From NCBI GenBank assembly GCA_003225295.1, contig QHYZ01000089.1, positions 1-54,368 of the forward strand: DNA of 54,368 nt. The letters run 5' to 3'. This document shows, in pieces, positions 6,350-18,860 of the stretch (positions are counted from its first letter, which is position 1; every line of letters begins with the position of its first letter). The position numbers were made by a program, and so were the translations under genes. Under the pieces are notes generated by a model. The model was given only the letters and a program-made list of their open reading frames with translations. It ran no database searches and was not told where the DNA came from. This DNA comes from Acidobacteriota bacterium. GTDB lineage: Bacteria > Acidobacteriota > Terriglobia > Acidiferrales > UBA7541.

Positions 6350-7009
6350 ATGGACGAGATGCCCAGCACCTCAACGAACTCTCGAAGCACACCGGCGCCG
6401 GCAAACACCGGCGTCAGCGACGAACGGCTCATGCTGGCTTTTTCGCAGGGTTCTCAGGATGCCTTTACACAACTCTTCTCCCGCTACCAGCAGCCGATCT
6501 ATGGATTTTTCCGCCGCCGTGTCGCCGAACCCGCTCACGCGGAGGAACTCACCCAGGAAACATTTCTCGCCCTGCTCCGCGCCGCCACTCGCTACCAACC
6601 ACGCGCGCTCTTTCGCACTTATCTCTATGCCATAGGCTTCAAGATACTGCGCGTCCACCGCCGCAAAGCCGCCTTCCGCGCCACGTTCTTTGGCCAAAGA
6701 AACTCCGCACTCGATCCCTCCAAGCGGGATGCCACCGAGTCCGGTCTGTGGGTCCGCCGCGCGGTGGAAAAGCTCGAGCCCATCGACCGCGAAGTCCTCA
6801 TGCTCCGTGAATTTGAGCAGTTGAGCTACGCGGAAATCGCCGACCTCTTGCAGCTTCCTCTAAACACTGTTCGCTCACGGCTGTTTCGTGCCCGTACCGC
6901 GCTACGCACTTTGCTCGAACCTGCTTCATCGCCCTCCGCAAAAGGTGCGATGCAGGTTCGGCAGGAGCCTGCTTCGCAGCCCATGGCCCAGAAAGGAGAA
7001 CGCGCATGA
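6350..7009 (+). CDS. ECF-type RNA polymerase sigma factor
   Basis: 219 residues from ATG 6350. Sigma region 2 is LMLAFSQGSQDAFTQLFSRY through AEELTQETFLALLRAATRY, and region 4 is LEPIDREVLMLREFEQLSYAEIADLL followed by the helix-turn-helix NTVRSRLFRARTALRTLL. It lacks a sigma-70 region 1 or 3, so it is an ECF sigma. The stop overlaps the start of the anti-sigma gene by 4 bases, so production of the pair is coupled. An in-frame GTG at 6269 would add 27 residues; no start has an ideally spaced Shine-Dalgarno. The C-terminal 30 residues (SSPSAKGAMQVRQEP...) are an unstructured extension. Confidence 0.93.
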   Translation: MDEMPSTSTNSRSTPAPANTGVSDERLMLAFSQGSQDAFTQLFSRYQQPIYGFFRRRVAEPAHAEELTQETFLALLRAATRYQPRALFRTYLYAIGFKILRVHRRKAAFRATFFGQRNSALDPSKRDATESGLWVRRAVEKLEPIDREVLMLREFEQLSYAEIADLLQLPLNTVRSRLFRARTALRTLLEPASSPSAKGAMQVRQEPASQPMAQKGERA

Positions 7010-13595: not shown

Positions 13596-14918
13596 ATGGC
13601 CACGGTCGCAAAGCCCAGCGCCCCGATAAGACAGATAGGCACGCCTCCCATGGTGCCGCGCATTGCTCCCCGCGAGGACCTGAATCCGTTTCGCATCGCG
13701 CAGATTCAGTTCGACATGGCGGCCGAATTCTTGAAGCTCGATCCCGGCTTGCGCCAGATTTTACGCACACCCAAGCGCGTGCTGGAAGTTTCCTTGCCGA
13801 CGAAGATGGACAACGGTCAGGTGAAGGTGTTCACCGGTTATCGCGTGCAGCACAACGTGTCGCGGGGCCCGGGCAAGGGCGGCATTCGCTTCCATCCCAA
13901 CGTCACGCTGGATGAAGTAAAGGCGCTGGCGGCGTGGATGACCTGGAAGACCGCCACGGTAAACGTTCCGTTTGGCGGAGCCAAAGGCGGCGTGATCTGC
14001 GATCCCAAGCGCATGTCCAAGAGCGAACTCGAGCGCATGACGCGGCGCTATGCCAGTGAGATCCTGCCCATCATTGGACCCTCCCAAGACATTCCCGCGC
14101 CCGATGTTTATACCGACGCGCAGACCATGGCCTGGATCATGGATACCTATGCCATGACGGTGGGTCATTCCGCGCATGGAGTGGTTACCGGCAAGCCGGT
14201 TTCGATCGGCGGCTCCGAGGGGCGCAGCGAAGCCACGGCGCGCGGACTGCTCTACGTGGTCGAGGAAGCGTGCAAGCTTAAGAAGATTTCGCTTCGTGGC
14301 GCGACGGTCGCGGTTCAGGGATTCGGGAACGCCGGCGCAACCGCCGCGCGCCTGTTTGCGGAAAAGAAAGCCAGAATCGTGGCCCTCAGTGACACCCGCG
14401 GCGGCGTCACCAATTCCCGCGGCATCGATCCCATCAAAGCGATTCGCTACAAAGAGCGCTCCGGTACCGTAGTCGGCATGCCCGGCGCGTCGCGCATCAC
14501 CAACGATGAACTGCTAACCATGAAATGCGACATCCTGGTGCCTGCGGCGCTCGAAAACGTCATCACCCTCCACAATGCCGAGGCCGTGAAGGCCCGCATC
14601 GTCGCCGAAGCTGCCAACGGCCCCACCACGCCGCACGCCGATGAAATTCTCGCCCGCCGCGGAGTCATCGTCCTCCCGGATATTCTCGCCAACGCCGGCG
14701 GCGTCACGGTAAGCTACTTCGAATGGGTGCAGAACCAGGAAGGCCTCATGTGGGACGTCGAAGAAGTGAACGCCCGCCTGCAGAAGATCATGGTTCGTGC
14801 CTTTCACGAGATGGTGGACACCATGCGCAAGCATCACGTCCCGCCGCGCGCCGGAGCCATGATCCTGGCCGTCGGCCGCGTCTCTGAAGCCACGCTGGTC
14901 CGCGGACTCTTTCCGTAA
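13596..14918 (+). CDS. glutamate dehydrogenase (Glu/Leu/Phe/Val family)
   Basis: 440 residues. Substrate site: GPGKGGIRFHPNVTLDEVKAL and FGGAKGGV, with the catalytic Lys in the second; the catalytic Asp is in PAPDVYTDAQTMAWI. Cofactor site: the Rossmann GFGNAGATAARLF. C-terminal NAGGVTVSYFEWVQN is the family signature. It reversibly converts glutamate to 2-oxoglutarate and ammonia in the cytoplasm. The acidic residue at the end of the second Rossmann strand (ALSDTRGGV) suggests NAD use. Length fits hexameric GudB/RocG enzymes. The N-terminal 20 residues are an unconserved Pro-rich lead, so the start could lie slightly downstream. Confidence 0.95.
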   Translation: MATVAKPSAPIRQIGTPPMVPRIAPREDLNPFRIAQIQFDMAAEFLKLDPGLRQILRTPKRVLEVSLPTKMDNGQVKVFTGYRVQHNVSRGPGKGGIRFHPNVTLDEVKALAAWMTWKTATVNVPFGGAKGGVICDPKRMSKSELERMTRRYASEILPIIGPSQDIPAPDVYTDAQTMAWIMDTYAMTVGHSAHGVVTGKPVSIGGSEGRSEATARGLLYVVEEACKLKKISLRGATVAVQGFGNAGATAARLFAEKKARIVALSDTRGGVTNSRGIDPIKAIRYKERSGTVVGMPGASRITNDELLTMKCDILVPAALENVITLHNAEAVKARIVAEAANGPTTPHADEILARRGVIVLPDILANAGGVTVSYFEWVQNQEGLMWDVEEVNARLQKIMVRAFHEMVDTMRKHHVPPRAGAMILAVGRVSEATLVRGLFP

Positions 14919-15056
14919 TTGCGGCGACCGGAGGTGCTGCCGGTCTGCCCCGGAGCAGTCCTCCGGCCAATGGCCAGGCATTGCCGCTGGTCATTGCCGC
15001 ACTGATTTCTCCCCTGTCGCCAGACCTAGCCACGGTTCAAAACGGACCGTACCTTC

Positions 15057-15533
15057 GTACTAGACTGGGCCCACCCCTGTACCATCGCCTCCCTCGTGAC
15101 CAAACCTAATACTCACTCCCCTAACGGGAATCAAGGCGCCGGGCCATGTCCCTAACGTGGGCCCCTAACCTTGCTCAGGAGTTCGGCTGATGCTGTTGTT
15201 ACACGCACCGGGAACGAAGCAGTCCTTTAGCGGTGGCATCCTCAGAACAACCACTTGGGGCAGGCGGCTTGCGCTCCTGACATTGCTCATGCTGCTTGTT
15301 GCTGGATTGTCCTTTGCCGACGGCAAGAAGCACAAGCTGTCGAAAGACCTTGAGGCTTTCAAAGGCGGCCATAACGGCGCTACGGTTGACGTGATCATCC
15401 CATTCAATCAAACGCCGGCCACGTGCTCTTGACTACCTTATGAAGATGCCAACCCCAGAAATCCCCAGACTGTCCCTGTCGGCAAAACCCGGCTCTACGC
15501 TGGTACTACACCTAGGACCTACCTGTACTATCG
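15057..15533 (+). repeat. diverged direct repeat upstream of both S8 peptidase copies
   Basis: 15057-15087 and 15503-15533 align without gaps over 31 bases with 21 matches, both starting GTACTA and ending TGTAC-ATCG. Both lie 130-145 bases before their ATG. The similarity seems to continue patchily to ACCTAATACTCAC / ACCTGACACTCAC. They may contain the shared promoter or leader. Confidence 0.5.
15190..15432 (+). pseudogene. truncated paralogue of the downstream S8 peptidase
   Basis: The 80-residue frame matches the start of the intact peptidase at 15648: TTTWGRRLALLTLLMLLVAGLSFADGKKHKLSKDLEAFKG here against TTTTWGARLALLALVALLAAALSLADGKKHKLSKDLDALKG there, then TVDVIIPFNQTP against TVDVIIQFNQAP. 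After this it stops (ATCS, TGA). It keeps only the signal peptide and the first strand of the propeptide, without any catalytic residue. The upstream DNA of both copies is also related (15057-15087 and 15503-15533). This is a tandem duplicate that lost its body. Confidence 0.8.
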
Positions 15534-15647
15534 ACGGGCACGCAGTCAGACCTGACACTCACAGCAGTGACAACCACCAAGCATCGGGCCGCGTTCTTCT
15601 CTCGACACTTCAAGCTCTTGGCCCTGCAACGCACTTTAGGAGCCCTT

Positions 15648-17468
15648 ATGTCCGCCACACCTGAAACAAGGCGACCCGTTCTAGAGACGACAACGACCTG
15701 GGGCGCACGGCTCGCACTCTTGGCGCTGGTCGCGCTTTTGGCTGCCGCGTTGTCTCTTGCCGACGGCAAGAAGCACAAGCTGTCGAAAGACCTTGACGCT
15801 CTGAAAGGCAGCAATAGCGGCCCGACGGTTGACGTGATCATTCAATTCAACCAAGCGCCGACGGATGTTCACCATCAGAAGGTGCACAGCAAGGGCGGGG
15901 TCCTGAAGTCGAAGATGGACTTGATCAAGGGCGCGCATTACTCCGTGCCCGTTGGATCCCTTGATGCTCTTGCGGATGATCCCGACGTTGCTTACATCTC
16001 GCCCAATCGCCCGCTAAGCGGCACCTCAACCCTTGACTATGGCGCCGAAAGTGTCAATGCGCCAGTGGCTTGGCAGCAGGGCTTGGATGGCACGGGCGTC
16101 GGAGTGGCAGTCATTGACAGCGGCGTTACCGCCGTTGGCGATCTCTACTGGTGGATTCCGGCGAATCAGACCTACGGCTCGCGCGTCGTCTATAGCCAGA
16201 ACTTTGTTCCTGGCGCCACGGATGCTTCGGACCAATATGGCCACGGAACACATGTGGCCGGAATCATTGCTGGTGCGGGTTGGTTTTCCACCGGGTCGAA
16301 CTTTACCCACACATTCAAAGGGATTGCGCCGAACGCAAACATCATTAACCTGCGGGTGCTGGATCAAAACGGTGTGGGCACCGACAGCAGCGTGATTGCG
16401 GCGATCCAGACAGCCATCAGCTTGAAGTCAACCTACAACATCCGGGTCATCAACCTTTCTCTTGGCCGCCAGGTGTACGAGAGCTATACGCTCGATCCGC
16501 TCTGCCAGGCTGTCGAGGCGGCCTGGAATTCAGGCATAGTGGTGCTGGCCGCGGCCGGCAACCAAGGCCGCAACAATAGCGGAGGCACGGAAGGCTACGG
16601 CACCATCGCGGCTCCCGGTAATGATCCCTACGTCATCACGGTGGGTGCCATGAAGACGGCGAACACCCCCACGCGTGTTGACGACACCATTGCCAGCTAC
16701 AGCTCGAAAGGACCCACAGCATTTGACCATGTCGCGAAACCGGACATCGTCGCACCGGGAAATCAGGTCGTCTCCACCCTGGCGCCGAACGCGCACCTAC
16801 TGAGTACTCCCACCGACGTTTATCTGAACGAGTATTCCAATTCCACAACAACCACTACCAAGAACAAAAAGAAGGACTCCACGTCAAGCCTCACCACGAA
16901 TGCCATCTCGACGTCTTATCTGCGGCTGAGCGGAACCAGCATGGCCACCCCCGTGGTCAGTGGCGCCGCTGCGCTTCTGCTGCAGCAGAATCCGAACCTT
17001 ACACCAGATCAAATCAAAGCCCGCTTGATGAAAACGGCCTCCAAGGACTTTCCGGCTAACAGCACCGTCACGGACCCAACAACGGGTATCACCTATATCG
17101 ATTACTACGACATTTTCACCGTTGGCGCCGGCTACCTGGATATTGCCGCGGCGCTCGCCAACAACGATCTGGCCGATGCTTCGACGGCGTCTCCGACCGC
17201 GGTCTTTGACCCCACAACACAGAGCGTTTCCTTAGTTACCGGAAGCAGCGTCGTTTGGGGCAATTCGGTGGTTTGGGGCAACTCCGTGGTCTGGGGCACG
17301 AATGTGTTCGTAGACGGGACATCGGTGGTTTGGGGTAATAGCGTCTGCTGGGGCTCGAGCACCAGCGATGGCTTCAGCGTGGTCTGGGGCACGGGCGTCG
17401 TCTGGGGTAGCGGAACGAACCAGACAACCTCCACGGCACAGAGCATTACGTTAGAAGGTGAGAAGTGA
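15648..17468 (+). CDS. S8 subtilisin-type serine peptidase with VVWG-repeat tail
   Basis: 606 residues from ATG 15648 with a good GGAG 5 bases upstream. Signal peptide 18-38; inhibitor-like propeptide about 58-122 (TVDVIIQFNQAP, DALADDPDVAYISPN). Catalytic triad: Asp157 in VAVIDSGV, His199 in GHGTHVAG, Ser431 in SGTSMATP; oxyanion Asn305 in AAAGNQG. A Thr/Lys-rich low-complexity insert at about 396-415 lies just before the Ser segment. After the core, residues 533-588 carry seven copies of a (S/N)-V-V/C-W-G unit. It would be secreted and degrade proteins. Its truncated paralogue lies upstream; a membrane protein starts 34 bases downstream. Confidence 0.95.
   Translation: MSATPETRRPVLETTTTWGARLALLALVALLAAALSLADGKKHKLSKDLDALKGSNSGPTVDVIIQFNQAPTDVHHQKVHSKGGVLKSKMDLIKGAHYSVPVGSLDALADDPDVAYISPNRPLSGTSTLDYGAESVNAPVAWQQGLDGTGVGVAVIDSGVTAVGDLYWWIPANQTYGSRVVYSQNFVPGATDASDQYGHGTHVAGIIAGAGWFSTGSNFTHTFKGIAPNANIINLRVLDQNGVGTDSSVIAAIQTAISLKSTYNIRVINLSLGRQVYESYTLDPLCQAVEAAWNSGIVVLAAAGNQGRNNSGGTEGYGTIAAPGNDPYVITVGAMKTANTPTRVDDTIASYSSKGPTAFDHVAKPDIVAPGNQVVSTLAPNAHLLSTPTDVYLNEYSNSTTTTTKNKKKDSTSSLTTNAISTSYLRLSGTSMATPVVSGAAALLLQQNPNLTPDQIKARLMKTASKDFPANSTVTDPTTGITYIDYYDIFTVGAGYLDIAAALANNDLADASTASPTAVFDPTTQSVSLVTGSSVVWGNSVVWGNSVVWGTNVFVDGTSVVWGNSVCWGSSTSDGFSVVWGTGVVWGSGTNQTTSTAQSITLEGEK
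17244..17411 (+). repeat. VVWG tandem repeats within the S8 peptidase gene
   Basis: Seven imperfect units of about 18 bases (GTGGTTTGGGGCAACTCC-like) encode VVWGNS, VVWGNS, VVWGTN, VVWGNS, VCWGSS, VVWGTG and VVWGSG, with short inserts. The periodic V-V-W-G pattern suggests stacked beta-strands or a surface-anchoring stalk. Confidence 0.85.
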
Positions 17469-17502
17469 GCGCTGCGACGGAGATGGGAGGTGGGGACAGC
17501 CG

Positions 17503-18240
17503 ATGACCACTAAAGCCAAGCTCTACATCGCCATCATGACCGCCCTGGCTGCCGCGATACTCGCTGTGGCGGCCTCAGAAGGGAATCCGAAAAACCTCGG
17601 GCAGTTCGTGCTGTTCTTCGGGCTTGCGATGCTCGGTTCCACGATGAAGATTCGGCTGCCGGGCTTTAAGACGACGATCTCCACAAACTTTGTTTTCATC
17701 CTGGTGGGCATCGCCTTATTCAGTTTTAGTGAGACCGTGCTGATCGGTCTGGGGGGCGCGCTTGTGCAGTCCCTCTGGAAGACGCAGAGTCGGCCGAAGC
17801 CCGTGCAAGTGCTATTCAACGGGGCGTGCCTCACGGTTTCGACGGCGGCAGCATTTTCTGCCTCGCACAGTGCCCTGGCGATGCTGGGTTTGAATTCTCT
17901 CCCCGCCATGATGGTCCTGGGAGCCTGTGTGTACGTGGTGCTAAACACCGGGCTTGTCTCGCTAGTGATCTCCTTGGCTGAGGAACGCCCACTCAGGGAG
18001 GTCTGGTCCTCTTGCTATGAATGGACATTCCCTTACTTCCTGGTGGGCGCGGCCGTAGCCGGTCTTGCCAGTGCCGCGGGGCATGGCACCAATGGGGGTG
18101 CAACGTTGCTGGTTGTGCCGACCATGTATTTCGTCTACGTCCACTACCGGATGCACATCGTCCGCGCTGTGCTCGATAGCATTTCCAAGGTGAGCCGGGA
18201 GAACGAAGCCTTACTTGCTGGTTCATCTCCAGGCCGTTAG
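17503..18240 (+). CDS. multi-pass membrane protein, resembling a sensor-type membrane domain
   Basis: 245 residues from ATG 17503, preceded by GGGAGG. About seven hydrophobic spans are visible: LYIAIMTALAAAILAVAA, LGQFVLFFGLAMLGS, NFVFILVGIALFSF, LTVSTAAAFSASHSALAML, AMMVLGACVYVVLNTGLVSLVI, FLVGAAVAGLASAAG and ATLLVVPTMYFVYVHYRMH. The KIRLPGFKTTISTNFVFI start resembles membrane regions placed before GGDEF or HD-type output domains, but no output domain follows; the protein ends after a short helix (ISKVSRENEALL). A PilZ protein is encoded 23 bases later, so it may work with a separate partner. Function is unknown; the sensor idea is inference. Confidence 0.8.
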   Translation: MTTKAKLYIAIMTALAAAILAVAASEGNPKNLGQFVLFFGLAMLGSTMKIRLPGFKTTISTNFVFILVGIALFSFSETVLIGLGGALVQSLWKTQSRPKPVQVLFNGACLTVSTAAAFSASHSALAMLGLNSLPAMMVLGACVYVVLNTGLVSLVISLAEERPLREVWSSCYEWTFPYFLVGAAVAGLASAAGHGTNGGATLLVVPTMYFVYVHYRMHIVRAVLDSISKVSRENEALLAGSSPGR

Positions 18241-18263
18241 CTTTTTTCCTGACAACTTTGCCG

Positions 18264-18860
18264 ATGAAAATGCCTAACATGCATCCCTCAAGCGCCACCT
18301 CCGGTTGTAGCGGGCCAAGCGTGGTCACCTTGGTTAAACCAGACCATTGCCGCGAGCACTTCATCCAGACCTGCTATCAACTTCTCGAAGAATGTGCGGA
18401 CAAATTCAAAGAACGAGACCAGGCGGATGAGCTAGCGTGCGATACACGCAGGCGCTCTCTGCAGGAAATTGTGGATCAAGCAACGACCACGAGCCTAACT
18501 CGTGACGATTTAAGTAATCTGGAACGGGTCCAGTTACTGGACATAGTCCGATGGGCCGGAGACCTAATCGGACAGATACGGCGTGGCCCGCGCAAACTGA
18601 TCTCCATTCCCGTGCGACTATATCTTGAATCGTCCAGTCAGACTCATGCGGAAGAGACGTCGGTCGTGGAAGTCAGCCAACACGGAACTGCGCTAACCTC
18701 CAGCCTCCCGATCAGCGTCGGTGAGCTGGTGAAAATGGAGCGAATGGATACGGGCGAGGGAGTCGAGGGCATCGTGAGGTGGCGCGAACGCCGTGATGGC
18801 GCGATAGTGCACGTGGGCATCGAGTTTTATAGTTGCAACAATTTCTGGCGTTTGCTCTAG
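18264..18860 (+). CDS. PilZ-domain protein with an N-terminal helical region
   Basis: 198 residues. The N-terminal half is helical and charged (HFIQTCYQLLEECADKFKERDQAD). The C-terminal half from about residue 110 fits PilZ: RKLISIPVRLYLES, then VVEVSQHGTALTSSL, matching the (D/N)xSxxG-type motif as VSQHG, and EGIVRWRERRDGAIVHVGIEF at the end of the barrel. The usual RxxxR is weak (RRGPRKL), so c-di-GMP binding is uncertain; many acidobacterial PilZ-like proteins are similarly degenerate. It lies 23 bases after the membrane protein and was probably co-transcribed. ATG 18264 was preferred to TTG 18258. Confidence 0.75.
   Translation: MKMPNMHPSSATSGCSGPSVVTLVKPDHCREHFIQTCYQLLEECADKFKERDQADELACDTRRRSLQEIVDQATTTSLTRDDLSNLERVQLLDIVRWAGDLIGQIRRGPRKLISIPVRLYLESSSQTHAEETSVVEVSQHGTALTSSLPISVGELVKMERMDTGEGVEGIVRWRERRDGAIVHVGIEFYSCNNFWRLL

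Follow-up and report, generated by a model that had tools for sequence, protein, structure and literature searches.

The 80-codon open reading frame at 15190-15432 of the window is very probably what is left of the 5' end of a second S8-MASE9 unit. That unit would have stood directly upstream of the present unit in the ancestor shared with G015, a same-genus genome carrying the same locus, and would have decayed differently in each lineage. The window is the whole stretch of DNA that was analyzed (54,368 nt) and is contig 137 of a source genome of 8.13 Mb in 385 contigs; all window features given below lie on the + strand. Comparison with G015 indicates that the locus is shared, that the relic in G015 is longer and carries different breaks, and that the two copies predate the divergence of the genomes. 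We infer that the relic has no function, and likewise when and in which order the parts were lost.

Upstream of the remnant is a glutamate dehydrogenase-type gene (ELFV dehydrogenase, 13596-14918; Pfam PF00208 and PF02812), which was used as a synteny anchor with G015. Downstream is an intact S8 subtilase gene (15648-17468) with a signal peptide, a propeptide that was modeled, a catalytic domain that matches the Pfam subtilase family (PF00082, E 2.7e-52), and a C-terminus of VVWG repeats. The repeats lie at 17247-17412, and six W-G pairs of this C-terminus are invariant across a 19-row alignment. A MASE9 membrane-sensor gene adjoins the S8 gene (17458-18240; PF20972, E 9.3e-7); GTG at 17458 opens its frame, and an ATG is found at 17503. 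It is followed by an ORF of 200 aa (18258-18860) that has homologues in G015, G027, and G029, gave no Pfam match, and is presumably of the PilZ type. Relatives of the S8 protein were found at 19 named loci, 10 of which belong to Acidobacteria MAGs labeled gp2 and three more to Acidobacteria MAGs of the "13_" series. At five loci (L042, L043, L049, L050, and L053), a further MASE9 homologue (36-39% identity) is located upstream of S8 and in the opposite direction.

The remnant runs from ATG to TGA and encodes a signal peptide and the first strand of the propeptide. Positions 15247-15417 align without gaps to 15690-15860 with 80% identity over 171 nt, and the remnant protein is 74% identical to the intact S8 protein across 57 aa. 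The local alignment of 15190-15432 with 15648-15900 scored 101, compared to a mean of 9.5 (sd 1.3) and a maximum of 17 in 300 letter shuffles. Homology to part of the intact gene is, therefore, above chance by both identity and alignment score, which bears out the original prediction that this frame copies the N-terminus of the intact peptidase. A shared pattern, TVDVII-FNQ-P, had also been pointed out. The copy of it is real, but the pattern hides a Gln-to-Pro change within the strand: the remnant has CCA (Pro) at 15400-15402, where the 26 other rows of a 27-row alignment have Gln, and in the wider alignment the first-strand glutamine is present in 18 of 19 rows. A 40-nt run that is identical in both window copies follows ADGKKHKLSKDL. 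For this run, the remnant and the downstream copy have a TCG codon in common, while TCC is found in the G015 relic, the G015 downstream copy, G027:C17, G012, G028, and G029. A small gene conversion between the window copies is possible; we do not claim it, as TCG also occurs in some further rows of the leader alignment.

The prediction described the frame as a peptidase reduced to its signal peptide and first propeptide strand. The comparison supports this, except that the last residues are not peptidase sequence, as S8 homology stops at about 15420. A scar at 15424-15438 joins the S8 relic to the leader of the intact copy, and the rest of the upstream unit is gone; homology of this leader begins at 15439 to G015 and at 15442 to G018:C171. 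The remnant is bounded by a deletion that would have taken everything in this lineage from about codon 77 of the upstream S8 gene through to the leader of the downstream copy. It has no catalytic domain and ends ahead of the remaining propeptide, so the parts needed for the parent function are lost. The AGGAG at 15177-15181, a likely Shine-Dalgarno sequence for the remnant ORF, is present in the G015 relic as well.

G015 provides a fuller version of the upstream copy at the same place. Its gene order is dehydrogenase, relic, S8, MASE9, next ORF, and a kinase-type gene that we take to be pdxK. Amino acid identities to the window are 98% for the dehydrogenase (over the C-terminal 52 residues, the part present in G015), 91% for S8 (first 472 residues), 88% for MASE9, 88% for the next ORF, and 97% for the kinase-type gene. 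Between the dehydrogenase and S8, positions 719-958 of the G015 locus (L051) correspond to the same N-terminus with its propeptide, 960-1205 to S8 read in a different frame, and 1176-1337 to a later part of S8 after a gap. These are followed by two MASE9 pieces (1331-1373 and 1374-1438), and the leader of the downstream copy is reached from 1441. Since the relic continues from S8 pieces into MASE9 pieces, the lost unit held both S8 and MASE9. A 73-nt stretch of the remnant in the signal-peptide region (15212-15284) is absent from the G015 relic, which shifts the frame and leaves the old start codon out of frame. A 144-codon S8 frame with an inner ATG is still open in that relic and lacks most of the signal peptide. 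In our reading, a longer relic would have been left in the lineage of G015, with this deletion, a frameshift, and additional deletions in both the S8 and the MASE9 part. The suggestion of decay in the original prediction is, therefore, well supported by a longer relic at the same place with other breaks. G015 is a 63% complete draft MAG, and its downstream S8 gene also shifts frame near residue 472-485; thus, assembly errors are possible in it.

The age of the copies was addressed with a tree of leader and N-terminal DNA (27 rows, 409 of 525 columns, midpoint-drawn root). The remnant and the G015 relic formed a pair (100/99) adjoining the intact gene of G027:C17 (98/97). The downstream copies of the two genomes formed a separate pair (100/98) adjoining G018:C171 (96/89) and G032:C255 (82/69). 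Both copies, thus, seem to predate the split of this genome and G015. The tie to G027 is valid for the 5' part only, because the middle part of the G015 relic is closer to the paralogue type of G018:C130 (64%) than to the G027 gene (42%). The upstream copy may be a mosaic of paralogues that exchanged parts.

The remnant and the G015 relic differ at 12 of 133 positions, eight of them third codon positions. Their dN/dS is 0.23, calculated from only 44 shared codons with 6.5 synonymous and 5.5 non-synonymous changes. The downstream pair gave 0.28 over the first 470 codons and 0.72 over the same 44 codons. We read the low value of the upstream pair as a sign of late inactivation: the upstream gene probably remained intact for a large part of the period after the split, and its inactivation came late in both lineages. 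The kept leader box, likely ribosome site, signal peptide, and single strand would then most likely reflect a young loss and not the function of a peptide.

A survey of 61 genomes, this one included, found S8 matches (E 1e-20 or better) in 23. Head-to-tail S8 copies with open frames are present in G018:C130 (three copies), G024:C85, G011:C489, and G032:C418, where the second copy is cut by the contig end. This search of related genomes agrees with the proposal of a tandem S8 paralogue. The copies are of the same family and in the same order as in the window, and in G018, G024, and G011 the downstream S8 copy is followed by MASE9, as it is here. In contrast to the window, where only a remnant is left, the upstream copies in these genomes have frames that are open across nearly the whole gene. 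Other broken S8 copies in the group were found at G018:C171 (the upstream copy, in two frames), G018:C80, and G032:C157. The relic at G032:C157 (L057, about 6590-6990) holds a signal peptide and a whole propeptide before it departs from S8, and has AGG where aligned relatives carry the ATG start. A third S8-MASE9 unit of the source genome is located at G000:C327:53179-54714 (L059 9234-10706). The middle of its S8 gene reads in a different frame from the ends; the outer frame is nonetheless open for 696 codons.

The leader upstream of the remnant is also conserved. Leaders 15020-15189 and 15470-15647 gave a local alignment score of 20, compared to 9.3 +/- 1.4 and a maximum of 16 for letter shuffles, so the upstream regions align beyond chance, the absence of which had been named as grounds for dropping the prediction. 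The block reported earlier as matching at 21 of 31 bases was counted by hand at 15057-15087 and 15503-15533, and the same count of 21/31 was obtained. It corresponds to a box that is conserved in S8 leaders of the genus, identified by alignment and pattern matches, with one copy ahead of the remnant (15057-15087, GTACTA-N14-CTGTACCATCG) and the other ahead of the intact S8 gene (15503-15533); the two are 446 nt apart. Across 18 aligned leaders, the conserved stretch is near CTGTNC-N4-GTACTA-N13-15-CTGTACYATCGAC.

Exact matches to GTACTA-N(7-17)-CTGTACYATSG were searched for, with the pattern read backwards as a control. The 8.13-Mb genome has three matches and the control gave none. Two are ahead of the S8 copies of the window, and the third (G000:C327:52647-52677) is ahead of the C327 S8 gene, which has a longer N-terminus. 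In the genus, 20 exact matches (GTACTA-N13-15-CTGTACYATSG) were found in 12 of 36 genomes and none with the controls. By position, 19 of the 20 precede an S8 gene or relic; the remaining one (G032:C214:4585; L055 4585-4615) lies before a MASE9-like ORF, and the interval contains no S8 match. Class-wide, the box was found in 11 of 299 genomes, 10 of which are of this genus; in the other, G202, it is again followed by an S8 start, which lies at a contig end. Some S8 genes have no exact box, among them those of G011, G024, G017, and G018:C130. When two mismatches were allowed, three further places were found in G000 compared to two for the control, and these may be due to chance. Two of the three places (L151-L153, on G000 C254, C263, and C379) share a near-identical 31-mer, and one precedes a gene that, judged by eye from a motif, presumably encodes a cytochrome c peroxidase-like protein.

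The box could act as a promoter or operator, a role that we only infer. The region ahead of the remnant had been called promoter-like; its leader is conserved, but a simple sigma-70 scan of 14900-15700 found no promoter-like site, so conservation is the sole basis for the term. Inspection of the leader by eye also raised a sigma-54 site, but its spacing is wrong and the idea was discarded.

The best placed of the other readings, itself improbable and compatible with the decay of an S8-MASE9 unit, is that the coding part is dead and the leader has been retained to serve S8-MASE9 as an additional promoter or operator upstream. The box is present in both relics (G000 and G015) despite the broken-up coding part in G015, and a scan of 14900-15700 found no terminator-like site. 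However, at 11% divergence all 17 specified positions of the box would remain the same with a probability of about 0.14, so retention is no proof. We would give a similarly slim chance to an extended form of this reading, in which both copies of a lineage-specific box would feed S8-MASE9, the 80-codon frame would be translated into an exported leader peptide belonging to a tandem promoter, and an undescribed regulator or sigma factor devoted to the protease-sensor unit would have its site at the box.

It is still less probable that the remnant is a functional short exported peptide derived from the start of the propeptide, whether as a decoy or as a modulator of folding. The remnant still has a leader box and a likely ribosome site ahead of an open frame with a signal peptide, and the dN/dS of 0.23 counts somewhat against a purely neutral history; ongoing constraint in this genome is possible, on 44 codons only. 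The open frame itself was rejected as a sign of function, since at the branch length of the remnant (0.031 changes per site) an 80-codon frame stays open with a probability of 0.77 in a simulation of substitutions only, without indels. The frame is also not conserved between related genomes: in G015, which carries the one orthologous relic known, the start codon is out of frame.

The structure of the propeptide also argues against a peptide function. One model was made from 19 rows, consisting of the window protein and 18 of 22 other ORFs, with four partial ones left out. The modeled propeptide has a strand at 60-67, a helix at 73-81, strands at 85-90 and 95-101, a helix at 102-109, and a strand at 114-119. 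Model confidence is high in this part (block means of 90-92 for residues 61-120), the mean pLDDT of the whole model being 49.3 with a poor catalytic domain. We take the strand-helix-strand-strand-helix-strand order of residues 60-119 to be that of I9-type propeptides. The intact gene is, therefore, like the subtilase propeptides of Inhibitor_I9 (PF05922) in modeled order, and the remnant has only their first strand. Pfam Inhibitor_I9 itself gave weak matches in two of 19 relatives (best E 0.066) and none in the window gene, and for the 80-aa product neither Pfam (threshold 0.01) nor NCBIfam (threshold 0.1) gave a match. Homology of the remnant ends at residue 71 and, thus, in the model it has strand 1 of four and neither helix, which falls short of the complete domain. 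POIA1 and similar stand-alone, propeptide-like inhibitors of proteases carry the complete inhibitor fold. The remnant resembles them as a propeptide-related chain without a catalytic domain and differs in having one strand. One study describes binding of a subtilase propeptide by way of its beta-sheet, together with a leucine from the loop that connects strands 2 and 3 (PMC10580911). The remnant has no such loop and, thus, not the leucine described there. With the helices and three of the four strands absent, a proline in the strand that is kept, and the start-codon frame lost in G015, there is little support left for the earlier idea of a small decoy acting on folding.

Equally improbable is a partial tandem duplication, in which duplication placed only about 440 bp, the leader with the first codons, ahead of the gene, so that a complete upstream peptidase never existed: it is plausible from the window alone, where the coding copies lie in a single register offset by 443 nt and a leader and N-terminus are all that remains, but it was rejected because the same copy in G015 extends into later S8 and MASE9 pieces, and because the downstream copies pair apart from the remnant, which groups with the G015 relic and G027:C17 and not with its own downstream copy, making a recent partial duplication very unlikely.

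The remnant is a gene relic of the ordinary sort. Because a larger part of this copy is found in the sister genome G015, in a different state of decay, it is most likely an ordinary dying gene and not a small regulator. Literature searches on tandem subtilisin paralogues of Acidobacteria, Acidobacteria pseudogenes, and MASE9 found only off-topic papers, and one on stand-alone I9 propeptide inhibitors found none. Neither the locus nor the leader box is described in these or among the matches listed for POIA1, propeptide, and subtilisin and for bacterial pseudogene extinction. Bacterial pseudogenes are under removal by deletion, according to Kuo and Ochman (2010; PMC2916853). The remnant resembles such pseudogenes in being a disrupted copy eroded by deletions; it differs in that a tandem paralogue is involved and that one lineage keeps only the 5' end, with an open frame.

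These data provide a two-genome snapshot of the loss of a tandem protease-sensor unit, in which the same copy carries two different sets of lesions. They also show that a short open frame with a signal peptide and a ribosome site beside a paralogue should be checked in a relative before it is called a small gene. Through its retained leader, the relic might, with low probability, be of importance as a second promoter. In the genus, the box is almost exclusive to the fronts of S8 genes and may help to find out how these secreted proteases, present in multiple copies, are controlled.
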